DNA from: Flavobacterium notoginsengisoli
Lineage (GTDB): Bacteria > Bacteroidota > Bacteroidia > Flavobacteriales > Flavobacteriaceae
Length of the DNA: 64,000 nucleotides
Reading direction: 5' to 3'
Assembly (NCBI RefSeq): GCF_014207905.1
Contig: NZ_JACHLB010000002.1
Coordinates: forward strand, 62,001 to 126,000
The notes under the pieces were generated by a model. The model was not told where the DNA came from, ran no database searches, and saw only the letters and a program-made list of their open reading frames with translations. Of this stretch, positions 1,523 to 49,925 are shown in pieces; the stretch's first letter is position 1; each line of letters starts with the position of its first letter. Position numbers and translations under genes: made by a program.

Positions 1523-2180
1523 TTTAGATTACCTCGCATTCTTAGAAAACATATTAACTGAAAATAGAAAAGCTAATTTTCTAAAAGTATTAGAGAACAG
1601 AACAAAACATTTTACAGTTGCGGTTGAAGATGTTTATCAGATGCATAATACAAGTGCTGTAATGAGAAGCTGTGAAGTTTTTGGTATTCAAGAATTGAAT
1701 GTAATTGAACAACGTTTCGGAAAAAGAATAGACAAAGAAATTGCGTTAGGCGCACAAAAATGGGTTGACATTAATAGATTTGATTCGGTTTCAGGCTGTC
1801 TTTCTGATTTAAGAAATAAAGGTTATCAGATTATTGCGACAACACCGCATGAAAAAGATTGTATGTTGGAAGATTTCGATATTACAAAACCAAGTGCATT
1901 GTTTTTCGGAACAGAAAAAGAAGGTTTGTCTCAAGAAATTATGGATAATGCTGATGGTTTTCTAAAAATACCAATGGTTGGTTTTACCGAAAGTTTAAAT
2001 ATTTCTGTTTCGGCAGCAATCATAATTCAAAGCTTAACAAACAGATTGAGAAGATCTGATATTGACTGGAAATTAAGTGAGGAAGAAATTTTAGCAAAAC
2101 GCTTAGATTGGGCTAAAAATTCAATAAGAGATATAAAACGTATTGAAGAAAGATATTATCAGGATAATCCAAAGAGTTAG
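1515..2180 (+). CDS. trmH: tRNA (guanosine-2'-O-)-methyltransferase, SpoU/TrmH family
   Basis: A SpoU-class (SPOUT, knotted) RNA 2'-O-methyltransferase, probably methylating G18 in the tRNA D-loop with SAM. The visible motifs are the N-terminal block with VEDVYQMHNTSAVMRSCEVFG (motif 1, N and R for catalysis), LFFGTEKEGLSQEIM (motif 2) and IPMVGFTESLNISVSAAI (motif 3, SAM-binding knot). The length of 221 residues is normal for TrmH. A TTG at 1494 would add seven residues, but the ATG at 1515 fits the family and overlaps the previous gene by eight bases. The other SpoU proteins (e.g. TrmL, RlmB) are less likely because of the short C-terminal basic tail and the motif spacing. Confidence 0.88.
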   Translation: MIDLDYLAFLENILTENRKANFLKVLENRTKHFTVAVEDVYQMHNTSAVMRSCEVFGIQELNVIEQRFGKRIDKEIALGAQKWVDINRFDSVSGCLSDLRNKGYQIIATTPHEKDCMLEDFDITKPSALFFGTEKEGLSQEIMDNADGFLKIPMVGFTESLNISVSAAIIIQSLTNRLRRSDIDWKLSEEEILAKRLDWAKNSIRDIKRIEERYYQDNPKS

Positions 2181-2326
2181 TTTTCAGTCGCAGTTTAAAG
2201 TCTCAGTGTTGGCATTTTAAATTAGAAATTTAGATAAAAAAAAGACCGATAGTTTAACTATCGGTCTTTTTTTATGGATTTAAAAACATCAGTTGGTAAA
2301 CTTTGACTGTAAACTGCAACTGAATA
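2181..2326. repeat. CAGT-type inverted repeat, copy A (around a terminator)
   Basis: The left arm, about 2181-2212, begins TTTTCAGTCGCAGTTTA. The right arm, about 2290-2326, reads on the opposite strand as ATTCAGTTGCAGTTTACAG. The arms are imperfect inverted copies, with a perfect terminator hairpin between them. The same arm sequence recurs at 6095-6210, 9871-10390 and 22611-22702. Confidence 0.75.
2241..2270. terminator. bidirectional terminator between trmH and secA
   Basis: A perfect 14 bp stem (AAAGACCGATAGTT with its complement) has a two-base minimal loop, and is flanked by an A-run on one side and a T-run on the other. It can therefore end transcripts from both converging genes. Confidence 0.88.
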
Positions 2327-2335
2327 CTTAAAAAA

Positions 2336-6045: not shown

Positions 6046-6094
6046 GTAAATTTTGATTTATTTTAATAAAATTTAAGAACGTCCTTATTAGTGG

Positions 6095-6210
6095 TCAGTT
6101 TTCAGTGGCAGTTTGCAGTACAAAAACTGATGTTTACTACTAAATTACTGTGTTTTTAAGTATCCAGTTTTTGTGATAGTTTGCAGTCTGAAAACTGAAA
6201 ACCGTAACTG
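6095..6210. repeat. CAGT-type inverted repeat, copy B
   Basis: The left arm (about 6095-6130) contains CAGTTTTCAGTGGCAGTTTG and CAAAAACTG. The right arm (about 6164-6210) is a degenerate inverted copy that ends one base before the stop codon of the adenosyltransferase gene. It shares arm words with the copies at 2181, 9871 and 22611 and fills the gap left of that gene's 3' end. Confidence 0.65.
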
Positions 6211-6787: not shown

Positions 6788-6823
6788 TAAGATGCTAAGG
6801 TTCTAAGGTGCTGAGATGCTAAG
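6788..6823. repeat. TAAG-type dispersed repeat, copy 1
   Basis: A 36-base unit beginning TAAGATGCTAAGGTTCTAAG. An inverted copy agreeing at about 30 of 36 positions is at 50032-50067. It sits in the 75-base gap between the ABC ATPase and adenosyltransferase genes. Confidence 0.65.
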
Positions 6824-9870: not shown

Positions 9871-10390
9871 TAGTTTTTAGTCGCAGTCACAGTGACAGTT
9901 TTCAGTTTGTTGGAATCTTTAAAAGTTTTAGCTGCATCCAAACTTACTAGGATTATTTATCATATAATTTATTAATCTTCCTATTTCAAGATTTTTTAGA
10001 TGTAAGTTTTCAAATGTCTCTTTGCTGATGTATTTGCATTCCATTGAAAATTCAAGCCAAGTAAATGTTTCTGAATTTTCAGCGTCACTATCAGTTAACT
10101 TACTCACAAAATGATTTGGATATCTTCTTTTTCTATAAGATTCAGCGATATTTGCTGAAACACTTCTAGAAGATCTTCTTATTTGATCTGTTAATGAATA
10201 TTTTTCTTCTACAGGAAAAGTTTTTGATAATTCGAAAATTTCCATCGCAAGCTCAAAAGATTTCTTGTATGCCAGTAATTCTTTAAAATCCATATATTAT
10301 TTTTTTTGCAAGAATAATAAAAAAGAAAGAAAAAGTTTACTTTTAAAGAAAAAAACTGAAAACTGTCACTGTGACTGAAAACTAAAAAAT
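9871..10390. mobile_element. CAGT-type inverted-repeat element, copy C, carrying a four-helix-bundle gene
   Basis: The left arm (9871-9910) and right arm (10351-10390) are inverted copies. A core of 25 bases at 9884-9908 is perfectly complementary to 10353-10377; it starts CAGTCACAGTGACAGT and contains its own small dyad GTCAC-A-GTGAC. The arms enclose one complete gene (9928-10293) and little else. The right arm ends exactly at the stop codon of the ABC-F gene. Empty versions with related arms are at 2181, 6095 and 22611; the copy at 22685-22702 shares an exact 18-mer with 10371-10388. Treating it as a mobile or formerly mobile unit is inference. Confidence 0.6.
9928..10293 (-). CDS. four-helix-bundle protein (S23 / 23S rRNA intervening-sequence protein family)
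   Basis: A 121-residue protein of the family first found as the open reading frame of intervening sequences in spirochaete and Coxiella 23S rRNA. Family members form a four-helix bundle (often pentameric) with a basic surface, and include the Avd proteins of diversity-generating retroelements. The recognisable core is DFKELLAYKKSFELAMEIF, SKTFPVEEKYSLTDQIRRSS and RSVSANIAESYRKRRY, the last being the conserved basic helix. No 23S gene or retroelement is near. It is enclosed by the CAGT-type inverted repeat, its start being 59 bases from the right arm. The function is unknown; nucleic-acid binding is inferred from relatives. Confidence 0.88.
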   Translation of the reverse strand: MDFKELLAYKKSFELAMEIFELSKTFPVEEKYSLTDQIRRSSRSVSANIAESYRKRRYPNHFVSKLTDSDAENSETFTWLEFSMECKYISKETFENLHLKNLEIGRLINYMINNPSKFGCS

Positions 10391-21839: not shown

Positions 21840-22610
21840 ATGGAATTAAAACTTAACAAACCAATTTGCTTTTTTGATCTCGAAACAACGGGAATTGATA
21901 TCGGTAAAGATAGAATCGTAGAAATTTCAATATTCAAAGTTTTTCCTAACGGAAACAAAGAAAGTAAAACCTGGCTGGTTAATCCAACAATTCCAATTCC
22001 TCCGCAAACTACTGCAGTTCATGGCATAACTGATGAAAAAGTAGCAAATGAACCAACGTTTACTGAACTTGCTCCTCATATTCATAATATGATTAAAGAT
22101 AGTGATTTGGGCGGTTTCAACTCAGATCGTTTTGATATTCCGCTTTTGGCAGAAGAATTGCTTCGTGCGGGAGTTGATTTTGATATGAAAAATAAAGTTT
22201 CTGTAGATGTGCAGACCATTTTTCATAAAATGGAAGAGCGTACTTTAAGTGCGGCTTTGAAATTTTACTGTGGAAAAACCCTTGATAATGCACACTCTGC
22301 AGAAGCTGATACAATGGCGACTTACGAAATTCTGAAAGCGCAATTAGATCGTTATCCTGAATTAGAAAACGATATGAAATCGTTGTCTGAATTTACAACC
22401 CGTAAAAAAATCGCAGATTTTGCTGGAATGATTGCTTTTGATAAAGATGACGAAGAAATTTTTACTTTTGGAAAACATAAAGGTGCTAAAGTGGAAAAAG
22501 TTTTAGAATCAGAGCCAGGTTATTTCAGCTGGATTCAAAATGCTGATTTTCCTTTGTATACCAAAAAAGTTTTGACAGCAATTAAATTAAGAAAATTAAA
22601 TACGAAGTAA
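21840..22610 (+). CDS. DnaQ-like 3'-5' exonuclease with ExoX-type C terminus
   Basis: A 256-residue DEDDh exonuclease of the DNA polymerase III epsilon/RNase T superfamily. ExoI FFDLETTGIDIGKDRIVEIS holds the first two acidic residues (residues 12-14), ExoII GGFNSDRFDIPLLAEEL holds the third, and ExoIIIe AHSAEADTMATYEIL gives the catalytic His and Asp. The last 60 residues, FTFGKHKGAKVEKVLESEPGY...SWIQ, are the extra domain also seen at the end of exodeoxyribonuclease X. It is thus likely a stand-alone repair or RNA-processing exonuclease rather than the replicative proofreader. A CAGT-type repeat directly follows. Confidence 0.9.
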   Translation: MELKLNKPICFFDLETTGIDIGKDRIVEISIFKVFPNGNKESKTWLVNPTIPIPPQTTAVHGITDEKVANEPTFTELAPHIHNMIKDSDLGGFNSDRFDIPLLAEELLRAGVDFDMKNKVSVDVQTIFHKMEERTLSAALKFYCGKTLDNAHSAEADTMATYEILKAQLDRYPELENDMKSLSEFTTRKKIADFAGMIAFDKDDEEIFTFGKHKGAKVEKVLESEPGYFSWIQNADFPLYTKKVLTAIKLRKLNTK

Positions 22611-22702
22611 GTTATCAGTCGCAGTCTCAGTTTTCAGTTTTGACTGAGACTATTTCTGTATTTAGATAACTGCGACTGAAAACTGTGACTGAAAACTAAA
22701 AA
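22611..22702. repeat. CAGT-type inverted repeat, copy D
   Basis: The left end starts GTTATCAGTCGCAGTCTCAG and the right end holds ACTGCGACTGAAAACTG and GTGACTGAAAACTAAAAA. The outer words CAGTCGCAGT and ACTGCGACTG pair with each other, and CAGTC...GACTG steps occur inside. The last 18 bases match the right arm of copy C (10371-10388) exactly. The element ends two bases before the ATG of the FAH gene and so forms its 5' leader. Confidence 0.82.
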
Positions 22703-46391: not shown

Positions 46392-46497
46392 TTTCACGCA
46401 GATTTGAAAAGATTTAAGCAGATGTTCGCAGATTTTTTATTGCAGTTAGTAAAAAGATCTAATTGAATCTGCTCTAATCTGTAAAATCTGCGTGAAA
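46392..46497. repeat. inverted repeat with CACGCAGATTT arms
   Basis: A 14-base perfect arm pair (TTTCACGCAGATTT at 46392-46405, complement at 46484-46497) and a looser inner pair (AAGCAGAT with ATCTGCTC) occupy the gap between the converging L,D-transpeptidase and NlpC/P60 genes. Repeated CGCAGAT/GCAGAT words occur inside. Confidence 0.82.
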
Positions 46498-49765: not shown

Positions 49766-49800
49766 TGTCAGGCTGAGCGAAGTCGAAGTCCCGCATTTTT

Positions 49801-49901
49801 TGTCATTTCGACTGAAAGGAGAAATCACACTAGAAACTCCACACAGAACGTCGCCAATCTTTGTCGAATCACGAGTGCGATTTCTCCCAGTCGAAATGAC
49901 A
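49801..49901. repeat. inverted repeat with GTCATTTCGACT arms
   Basis: TGTCATTTCGACT (49801-49813) pairs perfectly with 49889-49901, and the adjoining GGAGAAATC (49818-49826) with GATTTCTCC further in. The centre is unrelated. Confidence 0.85.
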
Positions 49902-49925
49902 AGATAACCAAAATGCTCTTTTGAA

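Follow-up and report, generated by a model that had tools for sequence, protein, structure and literature searches.

What is an S23/IVP gene doing between inverted repeats in the gap between two protein-coding genes? S23/IVP proteins are widespread and structures have been solved, and we know of no established function for the family. The case described here lies in the window, the whole 64,000-nt stretch of Flavobacterium notoginsengisoli that was analysed (contig NZ_JACHLB010000002.1, positions 62,001 to 126,000). A preliminary description of this DNA had reported a complete four-helix-bundle gene in ordinary intergenic DNA, enclosed by perfect 25-bp inverted arms, and had proposed a family of gene-bearing and gene-less elements tied to the bundle protein.

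The window unit and its neighbours

The unit consists of two arms and one gene:

10355..10383, minus strand: 5' arm (mRNA sense), five AGT boxes with spacing 7-6-6-7, 6 nt past the ABC-F stop codon
9928..10293, minus strand: S23/IVP four-helix-bundle gene, complete ORF of 121 aa (PF05635, TIGR02436)
9872..9906, plus strand: 3' arm, which repeats the 5' arm in inverted orientation with one more box by eye, 43 nt from the FKBP gene start

A repeat search recovered the arms as a perfect 25-bp inverted repeat (9884-9908/10353-10377), which extends to 28 nt at 96% identity (9884-9911/10350-10377); read as box arrays, the arms are slightly longer, as listed above. The enclosed ORF belongs to the PF05635/S23 family by its score against the 23S_rRNA_IVP profile (107.9 bits, curated cut-off 33.8) and its modelled four-helix-bundle fold, and it also matches TIGR02436. 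As previously described, there is no rRNA gene in the window by Rfam, and a profile search of the host genome gave no match to reverse transcriptase (PF00078). The window's single Rfam match is a Flavo-1 RNA (RF01705, 57589-57676, 80 bits). The location is indeed intergenic, but it is not just any intergenic DNA, as the IVP gene is flanked by an ABC-F gene and an FKBP-type gene and all three are co-directional. In the closest genome by an ABC-F fragment (G015, 97% identity over 127 residues), the ABC-F site (L075) has no IVP gene and carries a hairpin with a different box sequence, or word (CACAAAG...); one gap thus hosts different words in different species.

Inverted box arrays frame IVP genes

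Flanks were compared for 127 PF05635 loci from Bacteroidota, comprising 10 from the host genome, 69 from a genus search (61 genomes) and 48 from a phylum search (118 genomes); IVP occurs in 60 of the 61 genus genomes and 90 of the 118 Bacteroidota genomes. These loci come mostly from the top of length-capped lists ranked by E-value, with weak family members under-represented and orthologous sites included. The framing score, for which the upstream flank is aligned with the reverse-complemented downstream flank, had a median of 31 for own flanks and 19 for mismatched flanks (Wilcoxon p = 1e-21, 127 loci). A score of at least 28 was reached at 78/127 loci, compared with 3.5% of mismatched flank pairs, 22/127 loci in direct orientation, and 4/104 control ORFs of 270-600 nt from the host-genome sample; the remaining 49/127 loci fell under 28. 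IVP genes are therefore found between such arms well above chance, the check that the preliminary description had called for. Framing was also seen on plasmids, where 7/12 cyanobacterial IVP loci scored at least 28 and one Riemerella locus was framed too (13 of 29 plasmid records examined). We regard it as practically certain that IVP genes are framed by inverted arrays.

Within the arms of 83 loci with a score of at least 26, autocorrelation was raised at lags 7, 8 and 14 (0.41, 0.39 and 0.38, vs 0.31 in shuffled sequence), which identifies the arms as tandem boxes. The boxes are 7-8 nt long, and their word varies among loci. This variation is found even within the host genome, which has ten PF05635 genes with the following words:

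Window unit: AGTNNNC
L001: RAGNNNCT
L002: GCTNTAA
L003: TTAGTAA
L004: ATGTTAGATGTGAA
L005: GTTTAATC
L006: AGTCGAA
L007: GAAGGAA
L008: AATTGTTAATTGAT
L068: TTTAGAT

Eight of the ten reach an inverted flank score of at least 28 with 300-bp flanks; L003 (26) and L002 (23) are below it, with the arrays of both visible by eye. Among nine of these paralogs, 0/36 pairs share a word (arm score of at least 36). Besides the window family there are many others, each with another word, and the arms are tandem box arrays; both points go beyond the preliminary description. Several of the copies adjoin essential or central genes (sufC/sufD, cysS, murD/ftsW). At these and other sites, the names cysS, sufC, sufD, mvaD, murD, ftsW, leuC and leuD were confirmed, groES and groEL were tagged by short peptide patterns, and gmk/nadD, kdpB/kdpA, folE and acyl-CoA genes are our interpretation of the peptide sequences.

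Coupling of word and protein

Protein similarity and arm similarity were associated across 3107 pairs of 83 loci with non-homologous neighbours (Mantel rho 0.144, a value matched by 1 permutation in 500). Arms were shared (score of at least 36) in 14% of the 57 pairs with protein similarity above 0.6, compared with 1.3% in the lowest similarity bin and 0 to 0.3% in the others.

Two clades were followed across unlinked sites. The window clade, drawn from a separate search of the genus with the window protein, comprises 25 loci, one per genome and including the window, with 53-100% identity; L389 matches in part (70% over 64 residues), and second copies in G007, G032, G037, G047, G048 and G059 were left out. 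These loci form 11 groups without common neighbours. Tandem CAGT/CAGA boxes, scored with a fixed pattern, were present on at least one side of 21/25 window-clade loci and 5/126 other IVPs (Fisher p = 2.7e-17), and on both sides of 12 and 1, respectively. By eye, 24/25 have these boxes, the exception being L388 (53% identity), which has another word. The gene is accordingly not fixed to one syntenic place: its clade occupies 11 sites, mostly with the same word, and the corresponding site of G015 is without IVP.

The second clade was sampled as the best 80 of 131 named loci by similarity to the single L002 protein, so that one clade is represented. A groES and/or groEL tag was found at 71/80 of its loci, with both at 42 (L300 is cut off). 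Eight others were read as being located between leuC and leuD, with confirmation for L289, in Runella, Telluribacter, metagenome-assembled genomes (MAGs) of Chitinophagaceae, Cytophagaceae and Flavobacteriaceae, and an unplaced Bacteroidetes bacterium. Boxes of the form GCNNTARGC occur at 70/80 loci, including 6/8 at leuC-leuD, vs 0/118 other IVPs, a comparison set from which nine L002-like loci were excluded. The closest plasmid-borne protein, from Pseudanabaena (62.6% identity over 91 residues), lies in a frame of AGC boxes with the same spacing of 7. Both fixed patterns were written after the sequences were seen; the Mantel test is independent of them. Judging from these comparisons, the word is very probably coupled to the protein and not to the genome.

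Two loci on contig 17 of G040 (L042 and L133) have a protein score ratio of 0.98, lie in gaps about 2.8 kb apart and carry the same TGTATA word, with arrays that are already different. They are probably a recent duplication.

Gene-less relatives and dispersed arrays

The three gene-less relatives noted previously are real, and the exact 18-mer reported as common to copies C and D is present. They are listed here with other gene-less arrays of the window:

2179..2328, no strand assigned: gene-less element with the window word; arrays 2179-2207 (+) and 2300-2328 (-); RNA fold z -8.1
about 6090..6210, no strand assigned: gene-less element with the window word; array 6090-6119 (+), inverted partner by eye; RNA fold z -3.5
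22610..22697, no strand assigned: gene-less element with the window word; arrays 22610-22638 (+) and 22669-22697 (-); RNA fold z -5.1
6789..6823, plus strand: solo five-box RAGNNNCT array, the word framing host-genome IVP copy L001
50032..50066, minus strand: solo five-box RAGNNNCT array, the word framing host-genome IVP copy L001
29934..30075, no strand assigned: gene-less hairpin with TTTAGAT boxes, the word framing host-genome copy L068; score 60 to the L068 arm

The first element lies between two convergent genes, with its first array overlapping a stop codon, and the element at 22610-22697 sits between co-directional genes. The TTTAGAT word is A/T-rich, and its reversed control is also numerous.

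With up to 3 mismatches, the window arm pattern occurs at 31 places in the host genome, counting both arms of the unit, compared with 0 for the reversed control; by coordinates, none of the other places is near any of the ten IVP genes. The RAG word of gene copy L001 forms 18 arrays of at least 3 boxes in 464 kb, 12 of which have exactly five boxes (35 nt). Plain k-mer counts of arm words in this 464-kb sample are swamped by A/T-rich chance matches, and alignment with reversed-arm controls was used instead. Overall, this gave a weak excess (178 matches vs 132 reversed). Words above their reversed controls, given for the two arms, were those of L001 (15 and 14 vs 2 and 1), L002 (2 and 3 vs 0), L007 (3 and 4 vs 0) and the window (4 and 1 vs 0 and 1). 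The L003 and L004 words gave at most 1 match per arm, and those of L005, L006, L008 and L068 were not clearly above the controls in this sample, L006 being below (3 vs 13). Arms taken from other genomes of the genus gave a mean of 5.5 matches vs 4.9 reversed.

Across genomes, array abundance is associated with the protein to varying degrees. The eight genomes with a protein more than 70% identical to that of the window have 24, 28, 12, 0, 3, 18, 3 and 20 window-word arrays; 7/8 are non-zero, and the mean of other genomes is 1.0 (p = 1e-5, uncorrected for kinship). The association is weak when all window-type genomes are taken (arrays in 12/24 vs 8/37 without a window-type protein, p = 0.028), and G052 has 16 window-word arrays without such a protein. 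It is also weak for the L002-type word (4/8 with the protein vs 7/52, p = 0.031).

Two further sets of dispersed hairpins were observed. One is a separate family of about 100 nt, TGTCATTTCGACGAAGGAGAAATCT... and variants, without evident tandem boxes. The other has repeated CAGATTN boxes, e.g. CACGCAGATTTGAAAAGATTTAAGCAGAT, and is a further word family; by eye, its word is found in none of the ten IVP gene copies of the host genome.

TGTCATTTCGACGAAGGAGAAATCT-type hairpins: window 49800-49902; L192 14411-14510; L208 2057-2157; L210 3822-3950
CAGATTN hairpins: window 46392-46497; L210 8212-8305, 9589-9710 and 12713-12864; L193 3837-3950

Position, polarity and mobility

IVP genes are co-directional with both neighbours at 115/125 loci, compared with 182/321 ORFs in general in the host-genome sample. 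A neighbour was taken as the longest ORF within 1 kb, and the 2/127 loci without a long ORF on both sides were dropped. Among the host-genome copies, L004 is antisense to both of its neighbours.

The arrays themselves have a fixed polarity relative to genes. Among 23 AGT or RAG arrays of at least 4 boxes from the host-genome sample and the window, the two arms of the window unit included, 12 had the 3' end of a sense gene as their closest gene end and 8 had the 5' end of an antisense gene, with 3 misfits (20/23). Sixteen of the 23 lie within 10 nt of that gene end, 11 on the stop side and 5 on the start side. Read along the mRNA, a stop codon comes before the 5' array and a start codon after the 3' array.

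Both occupied and element-free groES-groEL spacers were found, the latter being 20-25 nt long in six other genera (L308, L309, L313, L315, L326, L329), and no duplication is readable from them. The loci compared, with one genome per species, included no empty/filled pair that shows a target-site duplication, and the evidence for movement is distributional. On this basis the unit likely is, or was, mobile. At several groES-groEL sites the L002-type gene is decaying, with a frame that ends early and arrays still visible (L251, L269, L290, L293, L294, L299, L304).

Reverse transcription in trans was considered as a requirement and rejected: the mean number of IVP copies was 5.8 vs 5.5 by presence of RT (p = 0.53), and in 29/61 genus genomes IVP was present and no RT was detected.

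Protein structure, box number and RNA fold

The window protein is modelled as a four-helix bundle with a pLDDT of 97.5 and a TM score of 0.88 to 2GSC. The best PDB matches are 2GSC and 2RLD, with weaker matches to Avd (4DWL, E = 0.008) and to chain D of a diversity-generating retroelement (DGR) ribonucleoprotein (8UBE, E = 0.015). The homologue structures 2GSC and 2RLD have five chains each, and the title of the paper on Xcc0516 (2GSC), as given in the reference list of PMC3936711, refers to five four-helix bundles.

In the unselected host-genome sample, AGT chains of at least 4 boxes numbered 2, 6 and 1 with four, five and six boxes, respectively, compared with none in shuffled sequence. A histogram of AGT chains over other loci also has its mode at five (44/114 chains), in a set that includes loci picked by that word and overlaps counted twice. 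With a counter covering all words, five was the mode at scores of at least 12 (29 vs 2 shuffled); this counter is noisy, with counts of 6-12 common and partly due to chance extension, and cyanobacterial arrays can far exceed five boxes. As five is not sharp across all words, the five-box statement is limited to the RAG and AGT families. Five boxes and five subunits invite the reading of one box per subunit, which is so far a numerical coincidence.

The element transcript is predicted to fold with the two arms as its outermost stem (z -6.4). The coupling of word and protein suggests that the IVP protein probably binds its array. That the ligand is RNA and that five boxes are matched to five subunits is a more tentative proposal, which we would put at somewhat short of even.

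Proposed mechanism and alternatives

As a whole explanation, we lean toward the window unit being a member of a large family of intervening elements, located between operon-like genes. When complete, such an element would comprise a box array, an S23/IVP gene in the sense direction and an inverted box array, would usually be situated between the stop codon of one gene and the start codon of a co-directional gene that follows, and would be co-transcribed with these neighbours. In the mRNA, the two arrays are predicted to pair as a long stem. IVP would act as a homopentamer, each subunit most likely contacting one box of its own array, much as a TRAP-like ring would, and we propose that contact of this kind would tie each protein clade to one word. 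The ligand may be RNA and not DNA. Binding would protect, excise or silence the stretch of mRNA that derives from the element, which would make insertion between essential genes tolerable, and would also be the step by which same-word gene-less arrays are spread in trans.

Arrays might instead arise and spread alone through slippage and recombination, with IVP cassettes swapped by homologous recombination through same-word arrays; word and protein would then be coupled without binding. Arrays do outnumber genes (one gene among the 31 arm-like places), array words are found without the protein too, and the longer homogeneous arrays, e.g. Pseudanabaena L212 and G216, are as slippage would produce. 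We nonetheless judge this unlikely, as self-spreading arrays alone leave unexplained the five-box preference of the RAG and AGT families, the inverted pairing, the sense bias (115/125) and the polarity (20/23).

To our knowledge, no orientation bias between co-directional genes is known for DDE elements. It is quite improbable that the arms are the terminal inverted repeats of a conventional DNA transposon or miniature inverted-repeat transposable element (MITE), mobilized by a transposase in trans with IVP as a passenger: the inverted ends, the gene-bearing and gene-less copies and the seven decayed genes listed above would fit, but the ends differ among the copies of one genome while tracking the IVP protein and vary by protein clade, no target duplication was seen, and placement is orientation-biased between co-directional genes.

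An immobile host system of RNA regulation, in which arrays near gene ends serve as mRNA stabilisers or attenuators and are bound by an autoregulated IVP kept between operon genes, would account for the stem stability, the placement at stop and start codons and the persistence of L002-type genes at groES-groEL in many genera (71/80 tagged, the 80 having been found by similarity to the L002 protein), but we give it equally little credence, given the patchy presence at one site among relatives, the element-free spacers in six other genera, the early-ending reading frames and the occurrence of one protein clade at 11 sites.

Relation to known systems

Of the known systems, the intervening sequence (IVS) of 23S rRNA is nearest to the window unit, and closer than REP/RAYT. 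The IVS in Coxiella 23S rRNA is 428 nt long, has a 28-bp terminal stem and is excised by RNase III (PMC4990558). The window unit shares with such sequences the protein family, complementary ends that form a stem (here predicted) around the S23 ORF and a size of about 0.5 kb. It differs in lying between protein-coding genes, outside any 23S rRNA gene, and in having arms built of tandem 7-8-nt boxes, with words specific to the clade and many gene-less relatives. The unit is thus no 23S IVS, although its mode of action may be similar.

REP/BIME elements comprise gene-bearing and gene-less relatives that share hairpin words and are coupled to RAYT (HUH) proteins. The comparison with them, made in the preliminary description, is apt for the dispersed gene-less hairpins that share the window word (31 arm-like places, three gene-less units in the window). 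It holds as an analogy only, as the enclosed ORF encodes a four-helix bundle and not an HUH (Y1) transposase, and the words form multi-box arrays; profile matches of the ORF were PF05635, plus bAvd below cut-off, and nothing else. The preliminary interpretation as a whole is partly supported, and its central proposal of a gene-bearing and gene-less family tied to the bundle protein survived the comparisons that could have refuted it.

The putative principle of a ring protein on tandem boxes is that of TRAP, the trp RNA-binding attenuation protein, an 11-subunit ring that binds tandem NAG triplets at fixed spacing. TRAP has an unrelated fold and 11 subunits, in contrast to the five boxes found here in two families. 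Avd of diversity-generating retroelements shares the fold of the window protein (4DWL; 8UBE chain D) and a weak HMM match, but the window protein is below the cut-offs of both the Avd equivalog (24.6 bits, cut-off 80) and bAvd (38.1, cut-off 40), and no RT (PF00078) was detected in the host genome. The bRT-Avd complex is recruited by a structured spacer RNA (PMC12875486).

A further comparison is with tandem repeats of about 7 nt, which are mostly intergenic and with which the arms of IVP loci agree in their lags of 7, 8 and 14; cyanobacterial IVP loci are likewise framed by 7-8-mers (7/12 at a score of at least 28). The STRR repeats of cyanobacteria are heptamer-type repeats. Heptamer TAACTGA repeats have been described in Beggiatoaceae, cyanobacteria and Bacteroidetes, also in r-protein operons and upstream of start codons (PMC4679880). 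Their authors suggest a repeat-binding protein as a possible mobile element; we found no such protein identified there, and the terms S23 and "intervening" are absent from the main text (PMC4679880). The repeat sets given there are nearly all direct (PMC4679880), in contrast to the inverted pairs around a gene reported here. A literature search of open-licence PMC papers found none that links S23/IVP to heptamer arrays. Heptamer repeats are abundant in many genomes; the coupling of word and protein gives the repeats and S23/IVP a testable cause, and natural protein-word pairs make recognition directly testable.

S23/IVP proteins may more generally be pentameric rings in which each subunit reads one box of a tandem array, the word being particular to the clade. 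They would then constitute a mobile-element class of their own, present in Bacteroidota and cyanobacteria at the least, which enters operons in sense orientation and is the source of heptamer/STRR repeats, with the 23S rRNA IVS and the IVP genes of cas operons as special cases. We offer this extension tentatively. IVP has been listed among CRISPR-associated functions, with 18 genes (PMC3936711), and PMC10910872 names it in a figure legend. In Pseudanabaena and Anabaena 90, IVP lies between cas6 and cas4, framed by its own inverted arrays, and for these cases insertion is an alternative to a CRISPR role. Inverted arrays of 7-8-mers were observed at L212 and L218, on cyanobacterial plasmids, and at L215, the IVP gene being located between cas6 and cas4 in two of these records and between cmr genes in one.
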